A stretch of DNA of 64,000 nucleotides from Rhytidiadelphus loreus (Eukaryota > Streptophyta > Bryopsida > Hypnales > Hylocomiaceae), in assembly GCA_947034895.1 (NCBI GenBank), contig OX344762.1:4159501-4223500 (forward strand), in the 5' to 3' direction. The notes beneath the pieces are model-generated. The model ran no database searches. It was given only the letters and a program-made list of their open reading frames with translations, and was not told the origin of the DNA. Below are positions 5,395-42,144 of this stretch, in pieces. Position 1 is the stretch's first letter; each line of letters begins with the position of its first letter. Made by a program: the position numbers and the translations under genes.

Positions 5395-5600
5395 CAACGA
5401 CGCTAGCATGTGAGCGTGGAGCAGTGAGCTTGTGAGCTATGAGCGATGAGTTTGTGAGCTGTGAGCGTTGGAGTTATGTTTTTTAGACTTTTATACCGAA
5501 AACACCTATTTTTTGAATTTCTTTTTTGGGTTTAGGGTTTAGGGTATATTTCAAGCAAATTTAAGGACCTATGACCGCTATCCCTATTACCGTGGATTCA
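5395..5600 (+). repeat. left terminal inverted repeat region of element A
   Basis: Tip CAACGACGCTAGCATGTGAGC, then several GTGAGC/ATGAGC words to about 5470. Then come telomere-like TTTAGGG units (about 5528-5545) and the block GGACCTATGACCG (5565-5577). The same order appears, inverted, at the right end of A and at both ends of B. The repeated GTGAGC words could be subterminal transposase-binding sites (inference). Confidence 0.75.
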
Positions 5601-6182
5601 AAGGATTTTTGTGCACAGTTTGCCAAGGTTCAATTAATGTGGAATTTCTTTCAGCCACCACTATTCTACTCCATATGACCTAATGGAGTGACCACTCTTG
5701 GAATGTCACATTTGTATAAAATACAAGAAACCTACTTTCAAAAAATGAAAAAAAAATGAAAAAAAAATGAAAAAAAATGAAAAAAAATGAAAAAAAATTG
5801 AAGGGGAGAAATTAAAAAAAGAATATAAATGAATAAAGTAATTCCAAAAGAATGGATGAACATGGAAAAAAAAAATGAAAACGAGAAAAATGTGAAAAGA
5901 GAAAGGAAAAAGAAAAGAAAGAAAATGAAGATAATATGGTCAAGAGAAAGACCAAAATGGATTTGGGATATAAAATTTAAGGTACGCAGTTTAGGGTAAG
6001 GATGTACACTTGTAGCTCTCAACCATTGATACATTCTTTTTGTAAAACATATGAATCATGACATATATAAGTTAACTTCGTGAACACATAAGCAATGTCC
6101 TTTCTATAGCTACAAAATCCTTTCAATCATTATACGTAAATGTAACATTATGACTGAAATAAAAAGCAAAATGTAGATATGC
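5601..6182. other. element A left subterminal DNA
   Basis: Non-coding. Holds a purine-rich simple repeat of GAAAAAAAAT units (about 5744-5800) and a longer A/G-rich stretch to about 5940. Lies downstream of the transposase stop codon and should contain its 3' UTR. No gene seen. Confidence 0.5.
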
Positions 6183-7829
6183 CTATTCTAAAACTGTGAT
6201 GATTCCTGCTCGAACTAGAAGTAACTTCAACTCATTGAAGCTATAACTTGGTGCATGAATGAAAACATCGTCATTGATGTCCATCTTGCAGAAGTATCTA
6301 AACAAATAGTACAAGTGCTTGCAATTCACGTACTTTTGTCGACCTCCAGTTGCAGAAACAACCATATTTGTAAAGTCTGGACACGTGCACGTAGGGAACA
6401 TACCCACAGTAATTCGATACACGTTTTTGTTGGGGTCTGCCCCTGTCTCAAGTGACACTATTGCACCAAGGCTTGGAAATGGAAGCAAGGTCACTCCCAC
6501 GATTTGCCCTCTTACATTTCCAGCGCTCTCCCACTTGTTCCGGTGTTCTGTAGTAGGTGCATTTCCAATTCGGCGTATGGTTTTGTTGTTCCGAACTGTT
6601 GGATACTGAGTCGAATTGGATGGTGATGGTTGATCATATATCACACTCTTGAATACTTTTGATATATTGAAAAGTCGACGTGGTGATAATGCAAGTCGTT
6701 CTTGGAGGGGGAAGCCTGCATGCTGTAGTAACAAAGTCTCGTCCCTACTCAAATTAGTTCCAATCAACATAGGCCAAACCTCTGGCACCTCTGGCCAATC
6801 AATGACCCATTTGCACTTTGAGCCTTTAAAACATCGCTCGATGTCATCCCAACAAAACCAAAAGTCCGCCACCACCTCTCGCTTACTCTTGTAATCTTCC
6901 TTTCTACCACGGTAGGTGGGAGCTAGGGTTCCTAGACGTCCCTTTGCTATTTTCGCCATGCACTTGATGTTCGATCCCTTTTGTTGAGCTTGACATTTTG
7001 CACCAGACTTGTGGTTGATTCTTGCAATATGCCACTTTGATATGTCACAGTCACTTTCAAATGCAATTGTAACATGCTGAAAAGTGTTTGTCATGGCTTC
7101 TTTACTTTTCCCTTCCGACGACTCCATTGAAGCCACATTTGACCTTGTTCGAACACGCGGTTGAGAGAAATTAACTTTGTCTGGTCGATGTGAATCTCTT
7201 GCATCACCAATGGGTATATCCAACTTCCTCTTCGTGCTCCCAAAAACTTTCTCTCCTTCCAAATGTGGTACTCGAGTTCCAATATCCTTTGCTCCAGGTA
7301 GTGTATTCAATGCTTCCGCTATTTTCTTTGGATCTCCACTTCGTCTTGCAGCTCTCAACCTCAATTCTCCCTTTGATGGACCAGATCCGCATGTATGCCC
7401 TCTCAAATATGCACGGTAGTTTGTCATTTGCATCCACGCTCGAATATTGTCGTCGCAAGTGGCATCAAACAAATTATTGCCTCGGTTTCCGGACATTTGA
7501 AGCCACTTGTTATGAACTGTTTCTGACAAATTGCATGAAGGCATGTCGGCCATCTCTTCCAAATTCAAATCCTACAAATCCAAGCAAACAGAAATATGGA
7601 TTACTATATTAGATTCTACACGTTAGACCTATTTATTTTTTGAAAAATGAATGCAAAGGTTTAGGTGAAATTTACAAAAGATGTAGGATAATCACATTAA
7701 AATAAATATTAACATGAAAGACTCCTAATATACAAGACAAGACTTAATTTTTCCAAAACAAATAGACACCTTCTTATTACCAACACACTATCACTTCGAT
7801 GGAAAAATCACCCAAATTCCATATTTTCC

Positions 7830-7935
7830 CTGTAACTATACCAAAAACAGGAGTCCTGTCAGAGACCACTAAAACCTTAGTCGGATCCGACTAAGGTCTT
7901 AGTGGTACCAGCTGGACCTCCGCTTTTGGGTACCC
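7830..7935. repeat. palindromic repeat, GGATCC-centred family, in the transposase A intron
   Basis: Imperfect inverted repeat centred on CTTAGTCGGATCCGACTAAG at about 7876-7895. The arms extend about 50 bp: ACCAAAAACAGGAGTCC on the left faces the complement of GGACCTCCGCTTTTGGGT on the right. Its position inside the 545-bp intron (102 bp in element B) explains part of the length difference. No coding potential. Confidence 0.7.
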
Positions 7936-9070
7936 TTCACTTTCATTTCCTCAAAATTTTGAATAATTCAATAAATTAGTTGATTATCACTTATCACAAT
8001 CCACCCCACATGAACCAACAAATGCATGCATAGAAATATCCATTTTTGCAGGTAACAACAACACATTTATCAAAGAGTACAACACCTACAAATATTCTAA
8101 TTTCATGGACACTTACCATTTGCATGAAGCCGCCCCATTGCCTGTAACAAAAATGCCAAAATGCTAGCCAATGGTCTAAGTGGTGAAGGGCCTCTTCACT
8201 TGCAGCTCCCGATGATAACCACCATGACCGGATTCCAAGATAACGTGTTTCGGCTTCCTCCATAGTCTTCGAATCTTTGTACTGTTTGCATATTGTATTG
8301 TGTTGGTATTGGAATGGTTCCTTGATATGTTTCTGTGTGTGCTTCTGAAGAGAAGTTGTCCAATGCAACAAACATGTCCTCTCACGATTCTCCATCTTCT
8401 CATTGGCCGACCCACTGCCATAGACAATATGAACCGCATTCCAATTCGCCATAGCACTATCTGCCATGAATCCCTTAAAGTTTGGATGGTCCACTCCGTT
8501 TCGTGACATCACATTGTTCAAGCATCTCCAAAACTGTATTTGGATTTCTGTATCTTCAGACTGCATGTCACATGTTGAAATGGTCATCACTTTCTTGTAC
8601 TCAGGATCATACACGTGGCAAGCCATCGTGGTCCACTCCTTTACACGCTTCACGTGGTCAAACATCATCCACGTATTCTGAAGATCACCTCCGGGTTGCA
8701 TACGCTTGACTAGGTCCACTCCACTCCCAGGTCCTTCGGTGAGCATTTTGAAGATATACACCTTCTCTTTACCTTGTCCAGGGAAGACACTGTCGTGTAT
8801 GTACTCGAACTTAGAGTCCTTCTTCATAGTCATAATGTTGTCAATAACCCCTCCTTGGTTGTTTGAGCGAAATGAAGAGATTACATTTCGTATATTTGGA
8901 CTGCTAAGATATTGGAAGCGATCCATGACCTCCTCTAGTTCCTCACCTCTCAACATTTTCTTCTCTCCCTCTCCGTTGTGAAAAAGATAGTCTGTTAGAA
9001 AGTCTTTGCTAGCGGATAAAGCAATGGCAGAGTTTGTGGCCATTGGTGTTTTAGCCACCTGCTCTGCAAT

Positions 9071-9075
9071 GAGTC
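9071..9075. repeat. 5-bp target duplication, left copy
   Basis: GAGTC directly before the insertion, repeated at 14250-14254. Removing the insertion and one copy restores an alignment of the transposase gene with that of element B across this point. Confidence 0.8.
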
Positions 9076-10631
9076 TGTGAGCCCTCAAGTTGGCACTTGG
9101 AACTCTGAACTTATTTTTCGCGATTTTTAGTTAATTTTTTAGTGAAAAATAAGAAAAAACATATAAAAATACAATTATTGTGGGTTTTGGTAGAAGTCCC
9201 TACCAAAGAGGTGTGTAATGGCCTTAAATGCGTGAAACACGTAAGACGTTACATTTTCACTAATTTTAGGTCTTATTAGTAGAAATAAGTAGTTAAGTTA
9301 GTAATTCCGAGAGATGTGAGAATTTGAGAGTTAACCAGTCCTAGTGTCTTGTTCATGTAATACAACAGCTATAAGTATACATGTAACAAACTGGTTAAAA
9401 GTTAGAGTCTAGTCCGAGTTAGTCCAAATCCAACTCGAAAGAGTTAGATTTATTGTTTGCAGGTAATTTTGAGAAATACAGTCATTCACAGACCAAGATG
9501 GAGGAAATGATGATTGGAACATACAGAGAGGTGCTTTTCTAGGTCAAAGCATGCCAGGAGGTCAAATAGAAGCCCGATCATCCAAGATTCCCCTGGTATC
9601 AAGAATAATTTCCCCCCCGGGTGGAAATTATTAAAGAATTGCTAAAAATAGCATTCTTATTGGAGATTTGGTTTTGCCCTTAGTTGATGGACATCTTGTA
9701 GAAGATTGCCCAAAAGTTTCGGGATTTTACAAAACTCCACGATGACTCCATGGGAAGTCAACCGCTTAAAACTGCATTCGTAAATTCCTAGAAATTACCA
9801 ATGTTGCGGTAAAATCTCACTAAAAATTGGAATAGTGTTTTGTGTGCCAATAAAGAGCCCTGTCAAGTTTGAAGACATTCTGACATTCCCAACTACCAGA
9901 ATTAGAACCAACAGCGAATTTTACAAGAATTTACAACTTGGCGGCGGGTTGACCGGCGAACCAGGAGCTAGCGGTGTCTGAATGGAGCGTTTCAAGGGTC
10001 AATTCTTACTCCCACGAATATTCTAAACCACCCAGGACCGACAGTTTCATCAAAAGACGCAAACTCCAAAAGTTAGCTTTTTAACTTTTGTTCTGAGTTA
10101 CCGTGACTCAAAATTGCGCTTTAAAACGGCTGGAGAGGTAGGGGTAAGGGGTCCTTTAGGCTAATTGGGGTCTTCTGAACACGATGGCACAATTTGTTTT
10201 CAATTTCGAGTTGTCCCTCAAAAGATAGAGAGGGTCAGCCCTTAGTTTGACTTTTAAAAGGTAATTTTTGATTAATCTGGGTTGATTTTGCAAATATCTC
10301 TTGTAAAATCGAAGATTGGATTTGCCCAAGATACTTGTCTTGCGTAAGAAGCCATCTTTTGGACTAAAGAAAGCCAATTTAGAACTAACCCTAGATTAAA
10401 ACACAAAATATCTTGGTTAATTAGGTAGGTTTTCAAAATATCTTTGGGAAAATCAAATATTTGATTTGGGAAAAGATTCTAAGGCCATTTAGGGCCTAGA
10501 AGGAACTCGCTTGAGAACCTTCCTTCCCATTAAACAAAGATTATTTTGAAAATACGTTTAGGTAGTTTAGCAAAATATCTAGATTGAAAGTAAAAGATAA
10601 TTTATGAACAACTTACCAGGGGGGGCCGGGA

Positions 10632-10648
10632 GCGAGTATATAAGGCCC
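10632..10648 (+). promoter_or_regulatory. TATA-box-like site in the 5.17-kb insertion
   Basis: GAGTATATAAGGCCC precedes a pyrimidine-rich stretch (about 10660-10780), like a plant RNA polymerase II promoter with a CT-rich leader. It fits the R/U5 side of an LTR, but no transcript start can be shown from sequence. Confidence 0.45.
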
Positions 10649-10824
10649 TTCCTCGAGGTTGTTCGTGGCCCTCATTCTTTGTTTCATTCTTGTTGTTGCT
10701 CTTGTCGTACTACCGACACTTGTCGGAGCACTTGTTAAGCCAAATTTTGGCTATTTTCTTCTATTTTCTTCTATTCTCTTGTACTTTGAAGGTCCGGAGG
10801 GCCCCTTCAAAACTTTGTTTTCTT

Positions 10825-11570
10825 TTCTTGTTTGAATTTGGAGGCTTCAAGCCCCAAAACTTTGCTTTTCAAGAGTTTAGGTGGAGGAAATCCCCTAACT
10901 CTAGTGTTGTTTGTGTTAACTAACTTATTTCTTGAATTTGGAGGCTTCAAGCCCCAAAACTTTGATATTTTGGGAGTTGTGGGAGTATTACCCAAACTCT
11001 ACTTTGATTTTATTGTTCTTTTGGATACTAACCAACCATTTGTGCGAATTGATACTAGTTTGTGAACTTAAAACTTTAAAGCGGCAAGGCTGGACTTTGC
11101 CAAAAGGGTTTAAGAATCACCACGTGCCAAAACTCGTTGTATAACGGGTGTTTGGTTTGAATAGTTGCTAATGTTTGGTTAAACACTGTCATGTGTACCT
11201 CCTTTAGTGATTAAACTTAAAACTTTGCTTTGAATTTTGGAAATTAGTTTTTAATGTTCGGTTAAACACTGTCATGTGTACCTCCTTTAAGAATTAAGTT
11301 TCAAAATACTAGTTTGGATCCTTGAATACTGGTTATTCCTGGGGTTGCTCCCACACGGCGGAGCTTTGACTTTGGAACCTGGAAACGGGTACTTGAAACT
11401 TAAGTTGTCAGTTATTTCCTGGGGTTGCTCCCACACGGCGGAGCTTTGACCTTGAAACCTTGAAACGGGTACTTGAAACTTGATTTGACTATTAATTCCT
11501 GGGGTTGCTCCCGCACGGCGGAGCTTTGACTTTAAAAGGTTAAAATTTACTTTTAAACTGACCATCTAAT
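10825..11570. repeat. series of short tandem duplications in the 5.17-kb insertion
   Basis: Three sets lie in a row. TTTGGAGGCTTCAAGCCCC is present twice 100 bp apart (about 10837 and 10937). AACACTGTCATGTGTACCTCC is present twice 87 bp apart (about 11182 and 11269). CCTGGGGTTGCTCCC with CACGGCGGAGCTTTGAC is present three times at an 81-bp period (about 11337, 11418, 11499). All are direct repeats; small open frames here come only from the repeats. Confidence 0.75.
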
Positions 11571-11944
11571 CGTGAATTTAACTTGCATGGCGAAGTTTTG
11601 AAACCAAGGAATCAATGAAATAAGATTCTTATGAAACTTATTTAAGAACCAGGTTTCAAAGATTAATTTCTCGTTTGTTTGTGCACGTTGTGGAGGTATT
11701 CTATCTCCAAACTACCAATTGTTGTTTTCTTTTCGTTCTTTCATCAATTTGTTAAAATCCGATTTCATCGTAAAAGATTATCAAAAATAGTTATCCTTGC
11801 ACTGTTTCCATTACCACAGAAATTAACGTTGCTTTCATTAGATGATTTCTTTTAAGGATTGTTTGGGTTTCTTTCTTTTCAAAATATTCAGTCTCTAAGA
11901 TTGTGAAAATCAAAAGCTCTTAGTTATACTGATTTCAGTCCAAG

Positions 11945-12180
11945 CAAAGGTGGGGGTCACCGAAGACCTGGACAGGCAAGGACCGGACCGGGATGCCAAC
12001 CAACGGCGCCTCGCCACGCGGCAGACGCTGGGGACGACAGGACGGGGAGCGACCAACGAGGAACGACGGAACGCTGAGGACGACCGGACGGGGAGAGACC
12101 AACGGGGAACGACGGGAACGCTGGGAACGACCGGAACGCCAGCCAACGGCGCCTCGCCACGTGGCAGTGGGGAACGTGCG
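11945..12180. repeat. GC-rich minisatellite island
   Basis: Strongly GC-rich DNA in an AT-rich setting, made of diverged units with GGAACGACGG, GACGACCGG and CCAACGGCGCCTCGCCACG words. Two copies of the last word lie near 12000 and 12144. The open frames through it are repeat artefacts. Confidence 0.65.
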
Positions 12181-14249
12181 GCATAAGTGTATCCAGAGCC
12201 AGCAACCAGTTCAACTTGGCCATATTACTGAAATTAAGAACAGAACTCGGAAGCCATCCCAGGACTGGGTAAGCAAATCACTTCAAAACTCAGGATGGAT
12301 TGAATTCAAAAACAATACTAACAATTAACTCTTTTCTAATATTCAGCTACAATTGTCATACTAAAAACTTGGATGTTAGCCAAAATGAAAACTTCTCTCC
12401 CATTGAAAATTTTGCAACTCATTCTCTTGTGGTTGAACACTAACTCTCGCCATAGCCAACAACTTTGAAGTTTCAAAACAACAAGAGAATGAATTAGGAA
12501 GAGAAGGGAAGAATAAGAAGGAAGAATTCGACACGTGAAGGAATTAGAAGACTAAAAAACTATTAAGGTAAGAATCTAACTATTCATCAATTAATTATTT
12601 TGGTATTGTTTATTCAGTTTATTCTTTTCACTATTCACGTTTAGATTTGTTTTAGATTATTTAAGATTATTTTATTAGATTACTATTCATTCATTTGGTT
12701 TTAGTTATTAATTAGGATTCCAAAGCCAAATTAGTTGTTTGTTTGTAGTTTGGGGGATTTGTTTTATTAGGCCTAATAAGCCAAAACAATAAAAACAAAC
12801 AACAACTAATATCTTGGAATATTTAATAAAATAACTATTAAAAATTGGCAATCGAATAAAACTACTATTCATTGAAAACTTGGGAAAAATGAATTAAATT
12901 TATCATTTAATTTAAATTCCTAAAATCAAAGGATTAGTTTTAAATTGCCAAAACTAACAAACTTGGACTTTTTAGATAGGTTTAGAAACAATAATAACTA
13001 AGATTTCTTTCAAACTCATGAAAGACAATGGAGAATTTCGAGGAGACGATTATGATGGTGTTTTGCGATGATGGGACAATCGACATTCTCGACACCAAGG
13101 TATGATTTCAAATTTTATCTTTTGTCTTTTCTTTTGCTTTCATTCTTTAAAAATTTAGATTAGAAAATTAAAACTAACAAATTAACCATTAAGAAGCCAA
13201 TAGCTAGTAGAATTTAAATTGTTAGAAAACCTTTGAAAATTTATCCAAAATCGTAAAAAGTAATAATTAGATTAACTTTGAATTAATTTGGAAAACGAAA
13301 TAGTAATCTCATCCAAAAGAATCTCAAAAGGAATCTAATTTAATTTAGGAACTTAGGGAATGTTAGAATAATTAGGGAAAGTAAAAACCTAATTTATCTA
13401 CTTATTCTCTTGAAAATTACTAAAGGAAGGGATTCCATCCAACCAAGGGGAATTTTCATCCATTTACAAGTTTTCACCTAAAAGTTCTAAATTTTTACTT
13501 TTTATCTTAACAAGAAGTTAATTAATCACTTTACTCATAAAAACCATAAAACCCTAAAAATTCACTAAAATTAGAATAATAACTTAGAATTAGGATTAAT
13601 TAAAGAACAATTAGGAATATTTTCAAGGCACGACTAGGGAATCTTTTGAAACCATAATCTTTTAGGGAATCTTTTGAAGATTCTAAATACACCTTTTACT
13701 TCTTAAATTACTTTAATGTGGAAGGATAAAAGGGTAGATGAAGATTTGACCTAATTCTGGATGAAAAGTCCTAAAATAGGTCAAAATTAGGTTTTCTCTA
13801 AAAATTCCATTAGTTAATTTAATCAACCTTTCAACCCTGAAATTTAGATTTATTTTACATTATTTTGCTATTTTTAGTTGACGGATGAAGTTTTTAGAAT
13901 AGAATTAGGTACGAATTTCATCCACACATAACTTTCATTAGGAATATCAGAATCCAACTTGCTTTACCATTTTGGAAAGGGCAAATTGTATTCTTTGATT
14001 TAGTTTAGGTCAAAGTTTAGTTTAGCTAGAAGTTTAAATCACAATTAACTACCCTCAACAACCTTTATTTCTTAACTATTAGAGTGTTTTGAAGTATTTA
14101 AATTAGGTAAAAATCAACATAACAAAGTGTCCATTGCTTGGAAGGCCAAAGAACACTACGTTTACATTTCACCTTACAATTTACTAACTTATGCCGCTAG
14201 AACCTGTGTGCAACTTTCTGACTTAAGGGTGGAGTTAGAAACACTCACA

Positions 14250-14254
14250 GAGTC
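14250..14254. repeat. 5-bp target duplication, right copy
   Basis: GAGTC directly after the insertion that ends ACTCACA at 14249; pairs with 9071-9075. Confidence 0.8.
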
Positions 14255-15451
14255 CACAAATCTTTTCCGTAGAATCTCTATACATCCCTTTTGCCACTGG
14301 GTGAGTATGATTCCCAAAGTGAACTGCGGCCCTCGTCTTCTTTGGATCATTTGTATAGCAATAATAGATCCTAGCATCACATGTACTCAAACAAGTAGGT
14401 GTAACCTTGCAAACCTTGCACACTAGAGTACAATCTTTGGGAGGACTTACCCCACCGCAAAAGGAAACACGGTGTATCCAATCCACTCTGTTTCGTTTTT
14501 CTTAGAAGCTCTCTTTACATAATCGCATTCCACGTTCAAACAAGCAAGATGGCCAGCGCAGTAAGACTTACGGAACTTCAAGTTGTCTGTGTTCTGGATG
14601 TTCGTTGTCAGTACCTTACACCAAGGGTGTTCGTCGTAACGCTTGTCCATTCCCTCCAAGTTCTTAGCCACCGAAGATGAAGAGCGGCACGGAGGCAGCT
14701 CGAAGACAACATCACCATTGTAAACTGCTGGTAGAAACTGTACACGGTGGTGCTTCATGGCATCATGAAGATCCATTGTTGATAGCTCATTACGAGAATG
14801 GCGAACAGTGGCTAGCCGCTTCAAGCAATCCATAATGCTTACTCGTTCAACAGGCGTTGGATGCATTGGTGGACGTGAATGTGAAGACAATGTAGGACTA
14901 CTGGAAGGGGTGTCCCATATAGACTTATGGATATCCATCTCATGTGATCTACTTGGAATTGCAGATGGTGACGTTTGAAGTGTCAAGTGAAGGGACTCAC
15001 CTTCTGATTCACTAGACAACTCTATGATAGGGTCTAATTTCTCAACCTTCACTTTCCGGATGATTGCACTATTTTTTAGCACAGGAGACACTTCATGAGG
15101 TACAATAGGTGATATTGAACCACACATGTAAGGCATATCTACAGTCAAATTATATGACTCTCGACTTAGTATCTCTGTGGATGCAGCTACCAAGGATAGA
15201 GGAAGACCATAAGCCCTGTAATTTCCCGAAGGCAGATACCAACAATGACCTTCTTCGGAGACAGACTTCACAATAGGGATAGATTCCAATAATTCACCTG
15301 ATTCTGACTTCTTCTCTTCTTCGACATAGATTGACGACTCTAAGAACCTAAAGCGGACATGAAGGAGGTGACTAGATATTGTGGCATATTTGCCATCTTC
15401 TACTGGAAAAACAAGTGGGACCTGATGACCATCTACTCGAATGGAAGCCAT

Positions 15452-17355: not shown

Positions 17356-17550
17356 ATGACTCGAGCAAGGAGGACAGTGTCTAAGATAGCGAATGGAGCA
17401 CCTGGTGATCCGCGTAGAATTCTTCGGTATGGAGGAGGAGAGAGTGCCGGACATGAACATGACGATGATCAGATTATAGAAACACCTCAAGGAGATTCAC
17501 AAGGTACTATTGATGATCACGGTGCAACACTTCCCGACGTCTTTCCAACC
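17356..17550 (+). CDS. possible first coding exon of the partner gene, element A
   Basis: Opens at ATG 17356 with a basic N-terminus (MTRARRTVSKIANG), followed by an acidic tract with HEHDDD. It ends exactly at a strong GTAAGT donor (17551). Its length of 65 codons leaves phase 0. Two further candidate exons, 18293-18391 (33 codons, AG acceptor and GTAAAA donor) and 20657-20833 (59 codons, TTGCAG acceptor and GTAAGC donor), are also phase 0. They join in frame to the ATG at 21360. A basic N-terminus could be a nuclear-localisation signal. No homology support other than this phase agreement, so the exon chain is a prediction. Confidence 0.45.
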
Positions 17551-18099
17551 GTAAGTCCTTCAAACTCACTTTTCTTTGATTTAGTCTTTGTCAATTAAGG
17601 AAGATGGATTATATTTCAAGAACGGTTTTAGGTTTTCACTTAAAATGTAACCATACTATATATTGTAGATGGTGGTGACAGATAGGATTCAATTCTAAGC
17701 TATAGAAGTGAGGGTACATGACTTATTCCTCTATTTCAATATTAAAGGAAATAACAAGTATTATCACATCCTCTTTAAATTTTGATGATGTGTTGGGCCA
17801 TGCCGCTCCAGTCCTTTATAATATTTCTCTTTTATTTTCAAGAGATCTATGAGATTCACAAGATCAGTGATCTTAGATTCACCCAATTCGAGATCCAATA
17901 GGTCCAACTGGTCCAACTAGTCCGTGGAGGGACCCGAATTCTGAGACTGAAAATACTGATTATCAAGGAGGTTGCTGATGAAACGTCGGGTCCTCAGGCA
18001 AAGTACCGCCGATGAGGATAAGGTAGCATGCTGAATTCGCTCCACTTTTTCTTAAGCCGTTGATCCAGAGGGAAACTACTAAGTTTGGATTGAAGTTGG

Positions 18100-31800: not shown

Positions 31801-33924
31801 TACCGCTGCGTACCAGCAAGCCTTGGAAAGGAAAGTGATGATTCGGTCATCGTTAGCAGGTCTTGGAGGAAAACGCCGGGCCTCACGCGTTGGGGCAGAT
31901 GAATTGAGCCACTTCAGCCACTTCACCTTGTGGCTTCGATCCGCGTTTGCAGTGGCGATGAGTTGGAGCTTGTCTAGCGTCAACTCTTGGACCGCATACA
32001 TACTCCAATGCCTCTCAATCTGGAAGAGCCAAATGACATGAGTATAGCATTGATCAAAATATGAATGATGGATAGGAAAGATTCAACTAGATTGAGCTAT
32101 ACCTCTTGAAGCCACTCGTCACCCAATGTAGGATGTGCTACAGAAACTATCTTGGATAGTTTCTTATAGAGGACGTGCGTTGCTTCTTTTGTGGAAGTCT
32201 TCATTGCTAGTGCGATTCCTTCTGTGGTCACATCCTCCAAAGGTGTGTCCTCGTGGTACTTCCGCACAGCTGCATCTGCCGCAGCAGCAATTTCTTGCTG
32301 AAGATCACATGATGTTAGTTATCAAATTAATGGAAGTCTGATTGATGGTGGAAACTGATATCATGTACATAGTATGAAAACAACAAGTTACCAAAATGAA
32401 GCTACCAAATAATATGTTCGAACGTACTAGGTGACCCGGAAGGCACAACCAGTACGTGTTGTCTTCTCAACTAGAGGAGTACGTTGACGAATTACGCAAC
32501 CGAAATTTAATCAGATGGGTTCCGGGGACAGACCACCCAGATTGACCAGAAAAAAAATATATAATTGAAACCGCTGACTCTTGTCCCGACTGAGCTGTCG
32601 CGTGTAGGGAGTCTCGGTGGCGAGACGGCTCAGGTAGCCAGCAAGAGTCGGGACTGCAACGACATTGGGTCAGGGTACAGACCACCCAGACTGACCGGAA
32701 AAAAAATATTTAACTGAAACCGCTGGCTCCTGTCCCGACTGAGCCCTCGCGTGTAGGGAGTCTCGGTGGCGAGACGACTCAAGTCAACGAGTCTAAGTCG
32801 GGACTGCAAGGACATTGGGTTGGTGGACAGACCACCCAGACTGACCCAAAAAAATAGTAATTATTGGAACCTCTGGCTCGTGTTCCGATTGAGCCGTCCC
32901 GTGTGGAGAGTCTCGGTGGCGAGACGGCTTCGGCCAGCAAAGAATGATGTGAAGACTTCCACATAGGATCGGACATACCTGAAAGATGAATGATGTGAAG
33001 ACTTCCAAGGGCATCGAGTACCATGTCTTCCTTGAACTTTGCTGACAAACCTTGACCTCCTCGGAACTCAGAAGTTCATTAAACTTCTCAAGTGGCATAG
33101 ACCCGTACTTTCGTACTCGATATAATGTATGAACCAAATTCGTCTTAACGTGGGAGTTCTCGGTGTGCCTAATCAAAAAGTTAAAAAAGTTAGTACAAGG
33201 CTTACATGCATACGGACATGCTTGATATTTAAATGATGGAAGTCTAAGCTTACTTGTTGATGTCGTGCATGACTTGCATGGCAGCACCTACACGGCCCTT
33301 GGTATCTAAAACGATCGAGTCCACCAAAATATGCCAGGCCATGTCATTATTGTGGAGTCTCTTGATGTGCCGCATCCATGAGATTCTCCGGTGGTTACCA
33401 TCACAAACGTAGAATTTAGCATCCACCAAGTGCTTAAACTCTGGAGAACTTCGTAGTTTGACATTGAAGTCATCATTGACTGTGTTCCAGAGCCCCCCCC
33501 ACTCAGCTTTTTCTCCATCGGAAAATGTCCTGATCTGGCCTTGCTCATCTGAAATGGAAACATAGAACACATGAGCTCCCTCTTCATAACCATGGACAAA
33601 TTCTTGCTCGAGCTTCGTCAAGTCACAGCTTAGAGTCGGTTGCACCATTGGCATCGGAACAAGCCGACAGAGTGGAATTCTCATACGGGAGAGGTCATGC
33701 GGTTGGATTCGCAAACTTGAAATAGTTGCTACAAAGTCCAGTTTCTGGGCTTTGCGTATCTCGTCTTCACCGTCCTCATTCTCATTGGGAGAATGTTCGT
33801 TATCTTCGCCAACAGTCTTGGAAGCCTCCTCGTCTAAATAAATGGGCGGTTGCTCTTCGTCAACAATCTCACGACCATTAGAATCCATCCGATCTACCGC
33901 ATGGCCGACTGAGGTAGAATCCAT
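28877..33924 (-). pseudogene. ParB-like/DNA methyltransferase-like fusion gene of element B, one nonsense codon
   Basis: Ten exons from ATG 33924: 33924-33254, 33168-32979, 32297-32103, 32019-31804, 31708-31473, 31373-30695, 30547-30200, 30111-29838, 29465-29249, 29162-28877 (1,104 codons). All nine intron phases equal those of element A. Exon 1 has an acidic leader and the ParB/sulfiredoxin-like domain (IPLCRLVPMPMVQPT ... VCDGNHRRISW) and is intact, unlike in A. Exon 6 carries the charged KKEERWESARKKPEENEAKK linker. Exon 7 has VDLIIVDVLEGLPVP at the methyltransferase motif IV place. Exons 8-9 have GDIVMDCTASTG joined to SAIYACRATGRHIVALE (motif I and following strand). An in-frame TAA at 31183-31181 (codon 567) replaces the Ser codon TCA of element A. 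Motif IV lacks DPPY here too. Short acidic C-terminal tail. Confidence 0.82.
32510..32955. repeat. three units of a 150-bp satellite in intron 2 of the partner gene
   Basis: Units start near 32515, 32666 and 32816. Each has ACAGACCACCCAGA, CCGACTGAGC, the hairpin word GTCTCGGTGGCGAGAC, and (in the first two) AGTCGGGACTGCAA near the end. They enlarge this intron compared with element A. Related to the 150-bp repeats at 34515-35370 by unit length and hairpin. Confidence 0.85.
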
Positions 33925-34087
33925 CTGAATATACAATTCAATGAAACAGAGATTGATATTAGGCATAGGGTATGTATTCCATTACTAAATACAATTGACA
34001 TTGATTTGTAAAAAACATTTGAGCAGCATAAAAAAGGTTCCCAATATATATCTCACGGAAATAATACAGAAACGTGGATCACAGAGG

Positions 34088-34423
34088 TCACTGGTCCCTA
34101 CAACCACATGTGTAATTCACGGAGATCCAAAGTCCACAAACGGTACACAAGGACCGGTCCCCTCTACTAAGTCCCATTGAAACCTCAACCTCGTGAATGC
34201 TGAGTCCCTCTACAACGAAATCTCCAGGGGAATCATCAAGAACAACAACTAATTCGTCACAGCCCATAGACGTGCAGCACGAGGTTGGAGATGATGCACC
34301 CCCGTCAGCATTCAAGTCCGCCAACAAGGCGTCAAGATTTACCATTCGTCGTTCAGGAAGCCTTGGAAATTCCTCAAGTGTCTCCTCAGTATCTGGAGGT
34401 CCATGCTCCATGATATGAATATC
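34088..34423 (-). CDS. acidic upstream exon of the partner gene, element B
   Basis: Opens after a CTGCAG acceptor (phase 0) as DIHIMEHGPPDTEE and runs to a stop at 34090-34088. It contains ELVVVLDDSPGDF, a SUMO-interaction-like stretch of hydrophobic residues followed by acid residues. It lies at the same place as the acidic exon of element A (20657-21157). Whether it is spliced to exon 33924 or ends a separate short protein is not settled. The best phase-0 donor is a weak GAG|GTTTCA. Confidence 0.4.
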   Translation of the reverse strand, partial: DIHIMEHGPPDTEETLEEFPRLPERRMVNLDALLADLNADGGASSPTSCCTSMGCDELVVVLDDSPGDFVVEGLSIHEVEVSMGLSRGDRSLCTVCGLWISVNYTCGCRDQ

Positions 34424-34514
34424 CTGCAGAAGCAATTCACTATCATGAGGAAATCGAATTCAACAAATTGGAGATCAACAATATTGGAAACAACAAATAG
34501 ATAGTACATGCCAT

Positions 34515-35375
34515 GATGATAACGAAGACGTCCCGACTGTCAATGCTACTAGGGTCCTCTCGGCAGCGAGAGTGCTCCCTTGCCTCCCCCGATGTCGGAG
34601 ATCCAACGCACGCGGGTAGGGGCTTGATCACCCTGACCTGCCAAACGAGAAACTACTGCGGCCTCAGGCAAGGCCCTTACCCGACTGGCCGATGCTACTG
34701 GAGTCCTCTCGGCAGCGAGAGTGCTCCCTTGCCTCCCCCGATGTTGGAGATCCAACGCACGCGGGTCGGGGGCTTGATCACCCTGACCTGCCAAATGAGA
34801 AACTACTGCGGCCTTCGGCAAGGCCCTTACCCGACTGGCCGATACTACTGGAGTCCTCTCTGCAGCGAGAGTGCTCCCTTGCCTCCCCCGATGTCAGAGA
34901 TCCAACGCACGCGGGTCGGGGGCTTGATCACCCTGACCTGCCAAACGAGAAACTACTGCGGCCTCAGGCAAGGCCCTTACCCGACTAGCCGATGCTACTG
35001 GAGTCCTCTCGGCAGCGAGAGTGCTCCCTTGCCTCCCCCGATGTCGGAGATCCAACGCACGCGGGTCGGGGGCTTGATCACCCTGACCTGCCAAATGAGA
35101 AACTACTGCGGCCTTCGGCAAGGCCCTTACCCGAGAGACCGATGCTATTGGGGTGCTCTTCGCGGCGAGAGTGCTCCCTTTCCTCCCCCGGTGTCGGAGA
35201 TCAAACGCACGCGGGTCGGGGGATTGAACACCCTGGCCTGCCAAATGGAAAACAAGTGCGGGCCTTCTTCACGCCCCGTCCCGACTGACCGATGTTACTT
35301 GGTTGCGCTTGGCAACGAGAGTGCTCCCTTGCCTCTTCCAAAGTCGGAGCGAACTTAGAAACGGGTCGGGGATTG
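34515..35375. repeat. five to six tandem 150-bp satellite units
   Basis: Exact 150-bp period (starts near 34540, 34690, 34840, 34990, 35140, 35290). Each unit has CTCTCGGCAGCGAGAGTGCTCCC (hairpin CTCTCG/CGAGAG), GGAGATCCAACGCACGCGGG, TTGATCACCCTGACCTGCC and AAACTACTGCGGCC. Copies 1-4 are nearly identical; the last two are more diverged. Because 150 is a multiple of three the array is open as a 281-codon frame, which is not taken as a gene. Confidence 0.9.
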
Positions 35376-36418
35376 ATCACCCTGGCCTTTGCCAATGCAA
35401 ATGCGTATCATATTTACTCTTTGTCTTGTTCGTCCGACCTTTTGAGAATAGTGTAGTTTCCTACTTCCTCCAGCTCCAGTGCACTATGCAGGAGATTCCG
35501 GCTTCATCCCCTTTGCCATCCCTAGGGGACTGACTTCGTGGAAAGCGGATTATTAGGCCCTACCTCCAAAACGAATGCTCTCGGTGTGACCCTCTTAGCC
35601 TCCACCGAGAGGTTTCAACCTAATTCTAAGACTCGCATGGACCTCGTCTTTCACGGAAGTTTTTGAAATCTAACGTGGAGATTCTAGTTCGAAAGAGAAC
35701 TGACCTTCGATAAGTCGACATTTGCATGCTCGGCATCGTTTTTCATCTCTCGCCGCTCGAGATCCCTTGCGCGTCTTGTCTCCATTTCTCCTGACGGTGA
35801 TTTGATTTTGAGGAACTCCCGTCGTCGCTGATTTGGAAAGAGCTTCTACTTCGCCTCTTAGTAGACAAGAAATGCGGTGGAGGGGGGAAACAGTGTTTCA
35901 AGTGGAATGACATGCAGTGCTCTGAGTGTGCGAAACTATCATAATGTTGCGTCATGCGAAATTTATTTTTGCCGGCGCAAGGTGTAAATCGGCATGGATC
36001 GTGCTGGGAGGTGGGTTGGGCTAGCATCTGGAAGGGGCATTGTGACTTCAAAACTTTATTTCAATGAATGACAGCGTGAGTGGGCTAATGTTAGACTATG
36101 GTCTACTCTGTTGGTACTGTTGAGGGTAAAAAGTGAAAAAAGAGTCCAGGCATGATGGATTCCTAAAGTAGCTATGTCTCATAGTCCGTCTTAATGCGAA
36201 TGATTGCTTCCTATAACTAGTTCATTGTATTTGACGGTAATTACAAGTCTTCATTTACCTCAAACTTCTACATTGAGTTTCTGCGACATTCAACTCTAAA
36301 AGCCTATAGGATATTAGATGTCACAAATTGAAATGAAATGGGACGAAGGTTATGAGACAGTCTTACGGACATTGTGATTTCCTTATGAGTTCTTCTCCTT
36401 CATGCCTACATCCGCACT
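35376..36418. other. upstream DNA of partner gene B
   Basis: No gene recognised. Contains an inverted pair CTCTCGGTG ... CACCGAGAG around 35578-35612, of the same kind as the satellite hairpin. The rest is unique-looking DNA. Confidence 0.4.
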
Positions 36419-36670
36419 CTATGCATGTTCACCACTCCTGTTCGATTGCGAATTGATCCCTGGACGCTCTTGAAGCAATCCTTCTTCGGCTATTTCTTCA
36501 GCTGCTTGATCCTGATCTGAGAATACTGGACCTTTCCGAATCAATCTCCTTCGACTCATCCTTGCCCTCTTCAACTCCTTCTCACTACTAAAAAAGAAAG
36601 AACGCTTGGCCCTCTTCCTTTTCTTCACGTGACAATCTTCAGTACATGATTTCCTAGGACTAGGTGGCAT
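36419..36670 (-). CDS. possible basic N-terminal exon of partner gene B
   Basis: Open frame from ATG 36670 to a stop at 36421-36419. It has Lys/Arg clusters (KKRKRAKRS, RMSRRRLIRKG) followed by an acidic QDQAAEEIAEEG tract. Position and basic-then-acidic composition match the 17356-17550 candidate of element A, but there is no clear residue alignment and no phase-0 donor. Could be a nuclear-localisation leader or a small separate protein. Confidence 0.35.
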   Translation of the reverse strand: MPPSPRKSCTEDCHVKKRKRAKRSFFFSSEKELKRARMSRRRLIRKGPVFSDQDQAAEEIAEEGLLQERPGINSQSNRSGEHA

Positions 36671-37450
36671 CTATGGCTCTAGATTTTCTATCTACACCAT
36701 ACGCGAATATGACGACATGAACAGATGCACGAATTTGACAACAAGACGATGTATTATGGAAACTAGAAGGGCTTCTGGAATGCACATTGTGTACTCTTAT
36801 TTATGTTCTACTGTGTGGACAATTCTGGGTGTGACAGAATCATATCACCGATGAATGTTTCAATTCATCGTTCTGTAACTATTCAAATTTGTCATAGTGC
36901 ATAGCACATTAGGGTACTTATTTTGGTAATAGTTTGCAGGTGACCTGCCTAAACATTATTGTCTTCATATTCTCAGTTGATGTATTATTGGAATACATAT
37001 TGCATTGTACTTCTTATAACGGTGCGGCATAGCGCGCACTCATGATTAGCCACCTTCTTGTATGTACTTGATGATTGATAGCAATTTAGGTAGACTACTT
37101 TAAAATCTTCATATTCAATAGTCATGTCCATACACTGCTTATCTTCTACAAATTTGAATATGTCTTCATCTCGGTACTTTCGAAATCTCTCTGGGTATTA
37201 AATATAATATTTAATGATCGGGAGATTTTCTAAGAATTGTTGATTTAGAAATATCTTTTCCAATCATGTCTTGAATGACCAAAATTGGCGGGCTTTACAA
37301 TTGCAGGATCATTAATGGTAAATTTGAACTTCATGAAATAGAAGGGATCATGAATTGATTAATGATCCTTCTCTCTTCTATTTAACAACCTGTGTTCCTG
37401 GCATTCTCCAAGTCTTAGTTACGCAAGATACTGTTACTCCTTCTTTTGTC
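36671..37450. promoter_or_regulatory. compact divergent promoter region of element B
   Basis: About 0.8 kb between the two outward-reading genes. AT-rich, with TAAATATAATATTTAATG at about 37198. An inverted pair GGATCATTAAT (about 37306) and ATTAATGATCC (about 37358) lies just upstream of the transposase. Likely holds both promoters, by position. Confidence 0.45.
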
Positions 37451-40400
37451 ATGGCATCCATTAGAGCGAATGGATTTGAGGTGCCGCTTCTTCTTCGAAT
37501 AAATAGTTTAGGTGTAGCTGTAGTGTCTACTGATTTGCTCCATGTCCGGTATGGTTTCGTGGAGTCCTCTATATATGTTGAGGAAGAAATTTACTCTGAC
37601 ACAGGATCACTTCTCCAGTCTATTCTCATGACTCAGACAAGCAATGTCCATGGGTACATTTGGAGTCTTCCAGCAGGATGTTATAGAGCGTTTGGTTTAT
37701 CGCCCGTTGTAATGGAGGCTTCCACTGAGATTCTCACTGATTTTTCTGCCGCTTCTACTGCGCAAGCTCCAGTCATTAGAATCGTGAAATCAGAACCAAA
37801 CTCTCCATCACAGTCAGATGACGTCGATGTTACTCACGTTACAAATAGTGGCGTCCGACAGATTCTAAGTCCTATAGTAGAGCTGTCTAGCGAGTCGGAT
37901 CCAGACGACATGAATGTGAGTCGTCAATCCGTCACATCTGCATCGGGAGATACTTCCACCAAAGTAGAGAATACACAATCTTGTGGTCTCCGTGAAAGTA
38001 GTGCCGGTAATTCAATCTTCTCACGACCTCCTCTGTATCCTATAGACAACAAATTCGAGAGTGTGATGCACTGTCTTCGAAAATTAGCCAATATCAGAGG
38101 ATCTAGGAACGAGCTTGCGAATTTGGACTTCCAGTCAATAGAATATGAAAAGGTCCAGTTCCTTCCAACTCATTTTAATGGTGACATTGTCTTCGAGCTC
38201 CCCCCATGCAGGATGTCATCTTCCTCTAGTTCTTCGAAGAACATGGGTGGCATGGATAAACGGTACGATGGCCACACGTGGTGTCGTACAATTACCTCAA
38301 ATATTCAAAATGATCTCGGTTTAAAGTTCAGGAAGTCGTCTTGCGCTGGTCATTTGGCATGTGTGAATCCTTCTTGCGATTATTTGAATCGTTGCTCGCA
38401 TAGAAACGAAACAGAGTGGTCCGGGAATACCCACACGCCATTCTACGTCGGAATAGCGCCTCCTAAAGACTCAACCGTAGTGTGTAAAGTCTGTAAACTT
38501 CCACCTACTTGTGTCAACTTCTGCGAAAGTAGGATTTACTATGTCATAGGTCCAACTAACATGTCCAGGGCATGCATACATCTAGGCACTCACACCCACC
38601 CTGTTGCGGGTGGACTGTGCAGAGATTCAGTTGATACTATCTCAGGACTAATTGCACTTGAGGTTTCAAAGACCCCTACAGCTAAAGCATCTGCCATCGC
38701 GTTGGCTGCTAGTAAAGAGTTCTTAGACACCTTCTTGGTTCACACGGGAGATGGTCCAAAAGAAATGCTACACGGAAAGGCACTTGATGATGTTATGGAT
38801 AAATTCCAAGTTCTCAGTTCTCCTAATGTGAGAAATATTATTGCATCCTTCCGGAGCACTGGAATCGGAGGAGGGGAGATTGACCGGATACTCGCAATGA
38901 AGAAGCAAGCGAAAATTGAGTTTATTCATGACAGTGTCTTCCCTGGACAAGGAAAGGAGAAAGTGTACCTCTTCAAGATGCTCGTTGACGGACCTGGGAG
39001 CGGCATTGATCTCGTTAGGAGAATGCAGCCGGGTGGAGATTTATCAAATTGTTGGTTGATGTTTGACCATGTGAAACGCGTTAAGGGATGGACGACCATT
39101 GCTTGTCACGTTTATGATTCAATTTATTGTAAGGTAATGACAATTGCAGTGTGTGACATGCAATCAGAAGATACTGAAGGGCAAGTCATTATGTGGAGAT
39201 GTCTAAACAGAGTAATGGAGCAAAATGGCTTGTCTAACCCGAACTTTAAAGGCTTCATGGCGGACAGTGCCCAAGCCAACTGGAATGCTGTCCGAATTGT
39301 TTTCGGATCTGGTGATCCGAAATTGAAGATAATAGACCGAGAGCGCACGTGCCTTTTCCACTGGGCTACTTCAATGAAGCAACACACCGAGAGACTTATA
39401 AAGAGGGAACTTCAAAGTCAGCATGTGAAGCTTTGCAGGGACTACAAAGATGCAAAGACACTCAAGGAAGCTGAAAGTAGATATCTCCAAATCAAGGCAT
39501 GGTGGTATTCTTCTGGTGCAACATCGGAGGAATCTCTCATGGAGCTTGAGTTATGGTTAGCGTTCTGGCATTTCAGATATCGCCAGTGGGGTGGCTTCAT
39601 GGAAACAGTGAGTACTATGATTCTTTTTTTGTATGACCATGTACATTCACGATTTAAATTTCTCAATTACCTCCAAATTATAACTAATAAATCGTTGTTA
39701 CTGATGCAGGACTTATCAATTGATGAAATTGCGGATATTCCATCTTGCAACCTCTCTGAAACGATTCACAACAAGTGGCTTCAAGCATCCGGTAAGCACG
39801 GTTCAGACTTATACGTTGCAACTTGTGATGATTGGGTCCGTGCCTTCATGCAAATGACCAATTACTGGGTGTATCTCAATGGCGGGCCATCGGGACACGG
39901 ACCATCACGCCATGACTTAAAGTTGAAGAGGGCAGTCGCCTCAATGGATGGCAAACGAATTACAGATGCCCTATGTAGTATGCCAGGTGCTGAGGCTGTT
40001 TGTACGCGCATCCCACACTTAGAAGGGGAGGAAGTATTCGGATCTATGAAGAGGAAGGTGGACGTTCCTATTGGATCCGAAGGAGATTCACATTGTCCAG
40101 ATAAGGTCAACTTTTCGCATCCACGAGTGCAAATTCGCTCTAGCGAAGGGCACATTGAAAATATGTTAGGGGACAATCCAATAATACCTCATGTCAAGCA
40201 TGTTCTTGAGACAGATTGTGACACTTCACAGTGGCACATTGCTCGTATTTCTGTGAAGTCTAAAAGAAAGTGCCATGCCATCCAGTCTGAAACGGAGTCA
40301 AAGTGCAAGATGATCATTGTAAGGGGTTCTAAAGCCACTGCGCTCCATTATATAAGGGTCAGAAGCGCGAGTTCAAGGGTTCAAGGGTGGAGACAGATGA

Positions 40401-41076
40401 GTTCTGGTTCTGCCCAGATGATATTAAGCGTTGCGTGATGGGTCCAAGAAGGTCTCATGTTCTCAGTCGACCAGAGATCCCTAATATTTGGCCAGTGCTG
40501 ATTGGTACTGCCCTCACTTCCGATGAGATAATATTGTTTGAAGATGCAGGTTTCCGCCTCCAAGAGCGTCCATCCTTGTCTCCTCGACGGCTCTTCACGT
40601 CCTCAAAACTCTTCGAGGTTGTGGAATGGACTTACGCAAGACCACCACATGCTGACAAACCTCTATGTATTCGTAATGGTAAGAACATACGCAGAAATGA
40701 AAAAGCACCTATTGATGAGCATCGGAATCAATGGGAGAGTACCCGAAATGTAACCGGAAGCATTCTGGGAGTTAACATTTTGCCTTATCCGGGCCTTGGA
40801 GCTGTCATCACTCTGCAGTCGGGAGTAGAACCTCAGCACATGGTGTATCGGGTCACTATCTCGAATTTTCCATCTTGCACATGTCTGTACTTCAGTAGTA
40901 TGGTGTCAGCATCCATTGGTAAGCGAGGAAAATATGTCAATTGCAAACATCTATATTATATTTTTTGTTATCTATGCAAAGTAGACTCCAAGAAGGACAA
41001 GTTCATCCACGCTCCAAGCCTTAGCATGGACGAAGTGCTCAAACTTCTAGAAAAGGCAGGGATGATCAGAATTTGA
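37451..41076 (+). pseudogene. MULE-type transposase of element B, one dinucleotide frameshift
   Basis: DDE transposase with about 1,173 codons over two exons. Start chosen at 37451 (MASIRANGF) because element A starts there too; the frame is open 32 codons further up. Features in order: SUMO-interaction-like SPIVELSSESDPDD (residues 140-153); Cys/His-rich DNA-binding-type domain (C298, C304, C309, CKVC 345-348, LGTHTHP); catalytic core with D539 in MFDHVKR, D605 in FMADSAQANW, C634-H637 in CLFHWAT, and a candidate E at 693-694; SWIM finger CTC...VNCKHLYY near the end. Intron 39608-39709 (GTGAGT...GATGCAG) sits at the same place as in element A. An extra TA in TATATA near 40349 shifts the frame, so the SWIM half is read only from the second frame (to 41076). 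This is the better preserved transposase. Confidence 0.88.
39608..39709 (+). other. 102-bp stop-free intron of transposase B
   Basis: The donor GTGAGT follows ATGGAAACA and the acceptor GATGCAG precedes GACTTATCA. The length is a multiple of three with no stop, so retention would add 34 residues. Element A has a 545-bp intron at the same point (8116-7572), which confirms it is an intron. Confidence 0.8.
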
Positions 41077-42144
41077 GCCTAGTATTGCAGTAGGAATATA
41101 TAGAACAAGTGTAAGCCTAAAATAGACTGTTCTACTATATATGGATGAGACTATGAGTCTATTAATTACATGTATGAGACTACGTGTTTATACCAAGGTA
41201 TAGTTATTTGTGAAGTCAATGTAAATATCCCATACAGTATGGATAATGCTCCATTGTTGACTCATTTGTTTCAGATGCCTGGAAAACATGAATGGGACCC
41301 AATGTCCAACTATAGTATTTGTTATCTCGGTAGCGAGACGGCTCTTGCGGTTCTCCTAAACCGCAATCATCTCCAAAAAATGGCACCAAAGTCCACTGGG
41401 TTTTTTTTTCTTTTAGGTGTGAAAAGAATAAAACATGTAAAAAGGTGCTTTCAATTGCCTCCCTTATAGCCTGTGTTCATAAAAAGAAAGAAGTTGGAAA
41501 TTATTACTCTACCATCAAGCACACAACAATTGTATTCAATTGCAACATAATTTTTTTTTGTTTGCTTAGAACCATGGAACATACTATGACAGCTGCCATA
41601 ATGTATTTGCCACGTCACATGTTAAGGGGACCATGTCACCTTTATTCATTCAAGAGGTGACAAGTGGCGATTTGCTCTAAAACAACTAAATGCGATACTA
41701 AATATGTACTATGAAGTCAACAAATGAATTTCTAGAACTTCAGTCTCAACTTAAAAGTCCAAACTGCTTAATGAACCCTAAACCCCTATACCACAATCAT
41801 GTGTGTAAGTCTATTTCCACCTTAACTAAACATGTCAGAGCAACCCATCCTAAATTTTCCCCAATCACTTCCATGTAGAAAACAGACCCGTAAACCCTAA
41901 ATCCAATACTTTAAACGCACCCTAAATCCAACCCTAAATCCACGGTAATAGGTCCACGGAAATAGGCCCCCCTTTATGCAATTTTGGTCTTAGGATTTCG
42001 AAACCTAAAATCCATATACATCCAAGTTTTTTTAGCTCGGAACTAAAAAATCAGCAAGTTATTCATATGGAATACGTAGGCTCGCAAAATCACTGCTCAC
42101 CGCTCTCAAGCTCACGCTTTTAGGCTCACAAACTAGCGTCGTTG
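41077..42144 (-). repeat. right subterminal and terminal region of element B
   Basis: Transposase 3' UTR, then TATCTCGGTAGCGAGACGG at about 41326 (hairpin word shared with the satellite). CCCTAAA-type telomere-like words lie near 41770-41940. Next come the inner block CACGGTAATAGGTCC (41941-41955) and the terminal GAGC-type words on the minus strand (GCTCACCGCTC, GCTCACGC, GGCTCACAAACTAG), ending GTCGTTG at 42144. The short open frames at 41170-41660 have no support. Confidence 0.7.

Follow-up and report, generated by a model that had tools for sequence, protein, structure and literature searches.

A Mutator-like transposon family in the moss Rhytidiadelphus loreus carries a ParB/methyltransferase-fold partner gene and palindromic arrays that suggest self-recognition

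In a 64,000-nucleotide stretch of contig OX344762.1 from the moss Rhytidiadelphus loreus (assembly GCA_947034895.1, positions 4,159,501 to 4,223,500 of the forward strand; hereafter the window), we characterized two related transposons, E1 and E2, each of which carries a transposase gene and, head-to-head with it, a ten-exon partner gene. Our reading, to which we assign a probability of roughly 0.55, is that both belong to a Mutator-like family that retains its transposase together with a partner of ParB and methyltransferase folds, and that this partner recognizes its own element via palindromes. Such a family would consist of elements of 13-15 kb without large insertions, with 9-bp target site duplications (TSDs), a transposase of the DD..CxxH pattern, and a divergent partner. 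The palindromes near the partner gene suggest, by analogy with bacterial partition, a self-recognition system like that of ParB and parS.

E1 spans 5395..26501 (21.1 kb) and E2 spans 28620..42144 (13.5 kb), both being delimited by typed ends and by exact 9-bp TSDs that abut the element ends and are read on the plus strand (CTTCTCAAA at 5386..5394 and 26502..26510 for E1; TAGTGGAAT at 28611..28619 and 42145..42153 for E2). An additional copy of TAGTGGAAT lies in the window at 56476, and the boundary of E2 can be shifted by one base. When read inwards, the transposase-side ends of both elements start with CAACGACGCTAG and the partner-side ends with C(A/C)GGG..TGCTA, and the terminal inverted repeats are imperfect, about 25-70 bp long, and contain GTGAGC arrays. 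GTGAGC stands 15-16 nt inside all four ends and is then repeated further inwards, at offsets 15, 29, 37, 59, and 66 on the transposase side of E1 (5395..5470, plus strand), 15 and 23 on its partner side (26470..26501, minus), 16, 31, 38, 45, and 53 on the partner side of E2 (28620..28680, plus), and 15, 29, and 44 on its transposase side (42085..42144, minus); half of the GTGAGC sites in the window, counted on both strands, fall within these four ends (15/30). All six window occurrences of CCTATKWCCG are also found there, in subterminal position, with two on the transposase side of E1 (5568..5592, plus), one on its partner side (26428..26437, minus), one on the partner side of E2 (28722..28731, plus), and two on its transposase side (41943..41966, minus). 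The transposase is on the minus strand and the partner on the plus strand in E1, and the reverse holds in E2, such that both genes point away from a central spacer, each towards its own end of the element. The TSDs, typed ends, and divergent strands bear out an earlier note on this DNA, which had described two elements with exact 9-bp duplications, related ends, and a head-to-head gene pair. All four genes of E1 and E2 are broken by frameshifts, an in-frame stop, or an insertion.

The partner gene has nine introns, with phases 2,0,0,0,2,0,0,1,2 in both elements, and the predicted protein as read here is 1103 aa long; the E2 copy was spliced by eye, and the E1 exons were set at homologous junctions. 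In E2, on the minus strand, exon 1 (33254..33924) encodes the ParB/sulfiredoxin (Srx) fold and is followed by exons 2 (32979..33168), 3 (32103..32297), 4 (31804..32019), 5 (31473..31708), and 6 (30695..31373, with the in-frame stop), while the methyltransferase region comprises exons 7 (30200..30547, motif IV position), 8 (29838..30111, motif I start), and 9 (29249..29465, end of the motif I region), ahead of exon 10 (28877..29162). The E1 copy (21360..26181, plus strand) has its exons at 21360-22022, 22143-22335, 22456-22650, 22744-22959, 23101-23336, 23973-24696, 24818-25162, 25255-25525, 25617-25827, and 25914-26181, with a frameshift in exon 1. The earlier note had seen the nine intron phases shared despite many residue differences, and this holds at identities of 43% for the partner and 55% for the transposase. 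The proportions of synonymous (pS) and nonsynonymous (pN) differences between E1 and E2 are 0.78 and 0.39 for the partner and 0.79 and 0.30 for the transposase, with synonymous sites saturated in both genes. Judging from these values, E1 and E2 are old relatives whose proteins were constrained during most of their divergence. Intron 5 of the E1 partner also holds a loopless 122-bp inverted repeat that is 98% complementary (23672-23793), and a hairpin in the E1 transposase intron (7839-7932) is related to it.

We searched the 407-Mb genome in which the window lies. All 150 scored places match in the ParB exon search (E <= 6.7e-74; 1388 first-look candidates), as do all 150 in the exon 7 search (1103 first-look candidates); many of the frames are uninterrupted, and some groups of copies score equally, a pattern like that left by a recent spread. 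We sampled ten of the other copies, taking every fifth row from row 5 to row 50 of 150 (R005-R050). The transposase is clearly head-to-head with the partner in 7/10, R040 has it as out-of-order fragments only, on the expected strand, and no transposase was found within the 10 kb examined for R005 and R010; in R030 and R035, it extends past the fetched stretch. Both ends could be mapped in four copies (R015, R020, R025, and R045), each with an exact 9-bp TSD (A-rich in R015, AAAAAAAGT; shiftable by one base in R020) and a length of 13.3-15.2 kb, and the six mapped elements together have GTGAGC in 12/12 ends and CCTATKWCCG in 10/12. The word "giant" in the earlier note applies in a relative sense only, given these lengths, the 13.5 kb of E2, and a 21.1-kb E1 that includes insertions. 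Across ten elements (E1, E2, the seven head-to-head copies, and R040, which contributes only 119 residues), distances between transposases correlate strongly with those between partners (Mantel r=0.937; 1/20,000 permutations reached it). Because several of the ten are closely related, this correlation shows co-inheritance rather than many independent events. Together with the shared intron phases, purifying selection, and the head-to-head arrangement, the congruent distances support the proposal that this lineage has long had the partner as one of its components. Homologues lying mostly outside Mutator-like ends would have spoken against it, and the ten-copy sample, in which both ends were mapped in only 4/10, does not show this. 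A second partner gene fragment lies just behind the first on the opposite strand in R030 (L020; element coordinates 15468-16516), and may represent nested or tail-to-tail copies. An open frame was also seen just upstream of the partner start in E2 (34088-34459, minus) and E1 (20603-21157, plus). The E2 type is kept in R005 (95%), R015 (89%), and R010 (42%, with one stop near the start), and the E1 type is 49% alike to a frame beside the second partner copy of R030; this frame could code for a third small protein or could be an upstream reading frame.

The candidate recognition site is the 14-bp palindrome TCTCG-N4-CGAGA, which is located in the gene spacer and in partner introns of most copies examined (strand does not apply to the palindromes and arrays). 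The head-to-head spacer of E2 contains a tandem array of 5.5 units of 150 bp (34532..35349), with the palindrome at 34558, 34707, and 35007, and partner intron 2 contains another of 2.8 units of 150 bp (32516..32929), with the palindrome at 32612, 32761, and 32911; two more lie in partner intron 8 (29605..29618) and in the stretch that separates the transposase stop from the E2 end (41325..41338). All eight palindromes of the window are inside E2, where 0.00 were expected from 100 shuffles, and chance was set aside as their origin on this comparison. The spacers of the sampled copies hold repeats of different units: 150 bp in E2, R005 (x 8.7), R010 (x 2.3), and R015 (x 4.8); 32 bp in R020 and R025 (x 6-8); and a 96-bp type in R030 (96 x 74.5, 7.1 kb), R035 (96 x 69.5), R045 (97 x 34), and R050 (over 2.4 kb), with the R030 and R035 arrays (L019/L020 and L021/L022) reaching ~70-75 copies and 6.7-7.1 kb. 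Additional tandem repeats occur in the partner introns of E2, R005, R010, and R015. Per stretch, we counted 65 palindromes in R030, 64 in R035, 29 in R045, 21 in R050, 10 in R005, 9 each in R020 and R025 (where they are dispersed through the spacer without falling in the 32-bp repeat), 8 each in R015 and E2, 4 in R040, 2 in R010, and 0 in E1. For five mapped elements, this amounts to 63 palindromes in 70,041 bp inside vs 0 in 73,959 bp outside, with E1 counted as outside. The palindrome arms are constant while the centre and flanks vary, and the repeat units differ between subfamilies; fixed arms around a variable centre are as for the candidate binding site of a dimer.

We also looked at the 5 kb preceding the partner at six further places, hand-picked from the lower rows of the ParB-exon list. 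Tandem arrays, their main units ranging from 118 to 361 bp, are present in all six (L050 and L051 are perhaps related), and the exact palindrome is present in four, with 3, 8, 5, and 6 sites against shuffle means of 0.00-0.02. The remaining two contain the one-mismatch form TCTCG-N4-CGAGG at 26 and 3 sites. The palindrome had been defined on the first set and was then met in this second one, and the one-mismatch form was sought only after the exact form proved missing. No TCG-N4-CGA palindrome was found in 20 methyltransferase stretches, which include introns but no spacer.

Several observations weigh against the palindrome as the partner's own site. It is far from exclusive to the family, since it occurs 2967 times genome-wide vs 1704 for the reversed control, and of the first 50 distinct places listed, 38 are farther than 20 kb from any partner copy in a capped list and 12 are nearer; ~2% of the sequence lies within that distance of the copies listed. 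For one array of 17 sites, near which no partner is listed, the 3 kb on one side gave only an 11-residue match, which does not speak clearly either way. E1 lacks the palindrome altogether, and its spacer has only short, mostly AT-rich repeats. E1 does carry another palindrome, AGTCG-GATC-CGACT, in its transposase intron (7879..7892), with further exact copies at 19507 (spacer) and 23726 (partner intron) and a two-mismatch form at 18921; its TCG-N4-CGA core and its placement are like those of TCTCG-N4-CGAGA, a likeness that is suggestive only, and two of the three exact copies sit within long hairpins that are possibly small inserted elements.

The partner's N-terminus is supported as a ParB/Srx fold by a structure prediction that covered exon 1 only, as the rows shown in the VIA list are all ParB/Srx relatives or proteins co-ranked with these by Foldseek. 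Among five ParB-exon sequences, one matched phrog_2159 (E 3.9e-4) and three matched phrog_1033; in 51 ParB-exon rows, phrog_1033 was matched in 15 (best E 0.03) and Pfam ParB in none. A CDGNHR motif presumably occupies the position of the ParB GxxR motif. A few of the 51 rows also gave weak Pfam matches to KMP11, DUF1015, DndB, and RDM1. With the whole E2 partner as a protein query, 0/7430 candidates matched at E <= 0.001, a result that probably reflects the storage of relatives as separate exons, and exon 1 alone gave 80 matches. When the ParB exon and alignments A3 and A4 were run against viral contigs, no relatives were found, and Protein Data Bank searches with the transposase and ParB alignments gave unconvincing matches or none.

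The METHYLTRANSFERASE half of the partner matched DpnA (6e-5) and CcrM (2.8e-4, nearly the whole domain) in a ten-copy profile search, and Pfam N6_N4_Mtase matched 10/10 copies (best 1.7e-7). Both the fold of the N6/N4 methyltransferases and the motif order of their beta class, with motif IV before motif I, were found, such that the ParB and methyltransferase likeness described in the earlier note is supported for both folds. We then compared the motifs in 31 copies, namely 11 of 12 elements (all but R010, in which exon 7 found no match) and 20 further places. The catalytic motif IV, [DNS]PP[YFW], is present in 0/31; its place is taken by DVPE in 23, DVLE in 4, DVSE in 2, EVPE in 1, and DCPE in 1. 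The DpnA alignment sets DPPY opposite DVPE, but the motif IV half scores only 2.6 bits on its own. In the S-adenosylmethionine (AdoMet) motif I (F.GxG), the first glycine is replaced in 30/31 copies (A in 22, S in 7, V in 1) and the second is retained in 27/31. The ratio of nonsynonymous to synonymous substitution rates (dN/dS) is lowest in the methyltransferase region (median 0.13, 0.08-0.17, 58 pairs), with 0.19 in the ParB region (3 pairs, all with R050), 0.35 in exons 3-6 (5 pairs), and 0.28 in exon 10 (82 pairs), in a comparison where copy sets differ among regions and pairs are non-independent. That a domain is constrained and yet does not have its usual catalytic motif points to a pseudo-enzyme or to a changed chemistry, and AdoMet binding may be retained. 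Since DPPY is missing in 31/31 copies, the role in DNA modification that the earlier note had offered for the partner is weakened.

The E2 transposase comprises exon 1 (37451..39607, plus, 719 aa), which contains D539, D605, and C634xxH637, and exon 2 (39710..41076, plus), which has one internal frameshift and a weak SWIM finger near the C-terminus. The E1 transposase, on the minus strand, is read in an N-terminal piece (14250..15451, with a frameshift near 14447), a middle piece (8117..9075), and exon 2 (6183..7571); the homology gap between the first two pieces is a ~5.2-kb insertion (9076..14249, minus) with TGTGAG...CTCACA ends and a 5-bp TSD, GACTC, identified by eye. Exon 1 has 61 relatives among the proteins of outside data (top identity 61%), and D539, D605, and C634xxH637 are invariant in the 14/14 aligned rows that reach the end, with a DD spacing of 66; a third acidic residue, E736, which lies in the NLSE(T)..HNKW shared by the two window copies, was placed by eye only. 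SWIM-type C-terminal zinc fingers are common in plant Mutator-like elements (MULEs), and the match here is below the gathering score (E 0.0064 in E2, 0.07 in E1). Curated MULE and Transposase_mut profiles gave no match above cut-off among 24 transposase sequences, with sub-threshold matches to Transposase_mut (E 0.034) and IS256 (E 0.15) in 1/24 each, and AlphaFold2 without an alignment was uninformative (mean predicted local distance difference test score 33). Both transposases (14447-15451 and 37451-39607) also share an N-terminal (D/S)PI(I/V)ELSSES stretch, which we take to resemble a SUMO-interacting motif. The exact 9-bp TSDs of E1, E2, R015, R020, R025, and R045 are within the 8-11 bp given for MULEs (PMC6446971), and the Muta1 transposase has catalytic residues D214, D283, and E419 and a CxxH common to MULEs and hAT elements (PMC5225508). 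The MULE label of the earlier note rests on the TSDs and the DD..CxxH pattern and not on Pfam; we describe the transposase as Mutator-like, and strict MULE membership is unproven, because no profile matched above cut-off.

We propose that the ParB half would bind the palindromes as a dimer, like ParB on parS, and would thereby recognize its own element in cis, with the arrays gathering many partner molecules above the shared divergent promoters. The likeliest benefit would be that the element is kept transcribed, against host silencing or by autoregulation, in a logic like that of VANC in the VANDAL MULEs. The methyltransferase domain would probably be a non-canonical AdoMet- or DNA-binding module and not an ordinary DNA methylase, and its altered form could bind AdoMet, DNA, or a host partner. 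Further reaching, and in our view doubtful, is a complete ParB/parS-type system in a eukaryotic transposon, in which the ParB-fold protein, fused to its altered methyltransferase, would load on the parS-like arrays of its own promoter spacer and introns, spread, and hold the element open against silencing (or pair and segregate it), with sites and protein co-diverging between subfamilies. Alternatively, the arrays could be promoter sites of a host transcription factor or a drifting satellite, and the partner could act elsewhere, such as on the GTGAGC and CCTATKWCCG ends, to aid transposition. The wide distribution of these end sites among the mapped elements, the location of the arrays in the shared promoter spacer, and the palindromes away from listed partner copies would all agree with this; however, differing repeat units share one palindrome with variable centre and flanks, and palindromes are also found in partner introns, and we consider this alternative unlikely.

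The partner could instead be an active adenine or cytosine-N4 methyltransferase that is aimed by its ParB half and epigenetically marks its own transposon, as the Ectocarpus authors propose for their protein (PMC12477816). Its fold, the low dN/dS of this region, and the retained second glycine of motif I are consistent with such activity, but the absence of a DPPY-like motif from every copy and the replaced first glycine speak against it, and we hold it slightly less probable than the promoter or satellite account. The classification of the transposase bears on a further possibility, namely that it comes from another superfamily (Sola1-like or new) and that the family is the known algal kind of ParB-methyltransferase transposon in another host. 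Sola1 TSDs are 4 bp, whereas those of the six elements mapped here are 9 bp. The missing Pfam call, with its two sub-threshold matches, and a published partner of 1104 aa on the strand opposite the transposase, vs 1103 aa here (PMC12477816), favor such an origin, yet the weak SWIM match, the DD spacing, and CxxH fit MULEs (PMC5225508, PMC6446971), and we regard it as improbable, to about the same degree as the promoter or satellite account. Lastly, MULEs frequently capture host genes (PMC6446971), and the partner could be one without function, as in Pack-MULEs; this was disfavored and is given very little weight, as the partner is full-length, keeps its intron phases between copies, is under purifying selection, and has been inherited together with the transposase.

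Outside the two elements, the window contains a host-type gene exon with a PPPDE peptidase domain (48427-48750, plus; E 2.8e-24) and a weak LAMTOR5-like match below cut-off (1643-2071, minus; E 0.0018), and neither Rfam nor tRNA scans found anything in it.

Among the closest known systems is Sola1-1_Ec32 of Ectocarpus, a 21.5-kb element whose 1104-aa ParB-like and methyltransferase protein is encoded on the strand opposite the transposase, and similar proteins are reported there from green and red algal transposons, with Iyer 2011 and Petroll 2025 as sources (PMC12477816). The two systems share an accessory gene of ~1100 aa opposite the transposase, ParB-like and N4C/N6A methyltransferase domains, and a large DNA transposon as carrier, but the Ectocarpus element, compared by description only, is labeled Sola1, whereas ours has 9-bp TSDs and a CxxH transposase; palindromic arrays and catalytic motif loss, present here, are unmentioned for it in the available part of the text (PMC12477816). 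The earlier note knew of no description of such a family; the ParB/methyltransferase pair is in fact already published in a transposon (PMC12477816), and a partial literature search listed no paper linking ParB to a MULE. No precedent was among the matches listed for parS and tandem-repeat transposons. Within the literature searched, the domain pair is known, whereas no description seems to exist of the Mutator-like setting with 9-bp TSDs, of the palindromic arrays, or of the consistent absence of DPPY. Algal ParB-methyltransferase transposon genes have been reported with their role left open; here, in a large family, the gene is inherited together with the transposase and is under strong constraint, it is probably no ordinary methylase, and a candidate binding site goes with it, which turns the question of the accessory protein's role into a simple binding test.

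Bacterial ParB/parS, including SopB/sopC of the F plasmid, similarly places a ParB-fold gene beside palindromic sites, parS being a palindromic ParB site and sopC a tandem array, although the palindrome sequence differs from the one here. No ParA gene was noticed, and no search aimed at ParA was made. If our reading is true, partition-type DNA marking would be extended to eukaryotic transposons. MuDR (mudrA/mudrB) is likewise a MULE with a transposase and a second gene, and integration apparently requires mudrB, according to PMC6446971; going by descriptions, the second gene here differs in having ParB and methyltransferase folds. The VANDAL MULEs of Arabidopsis are alike in having an accessory protein, VANC, and short motifs in quickly turning-over tandem repeats, which lie in introns as well as ahead of the transposase (PMC5735166). 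The nine-base motif that VANC21 binds forms arrays ahead of VANA and within introns of VANB and VANC, and VANC21 causes methylation to be lost locally; the VANC21 and VANC6 motifs (YAGTATTAY and AGTTGTCC/AC) are non-palindromic, unlike the motif here (PMC5735166). Spacer and intron motif arrays that turn over by tandem repeats were found here as well, except in E1, and should the partner counteract silencing, it would solve in another way the problem that VANC deals with.

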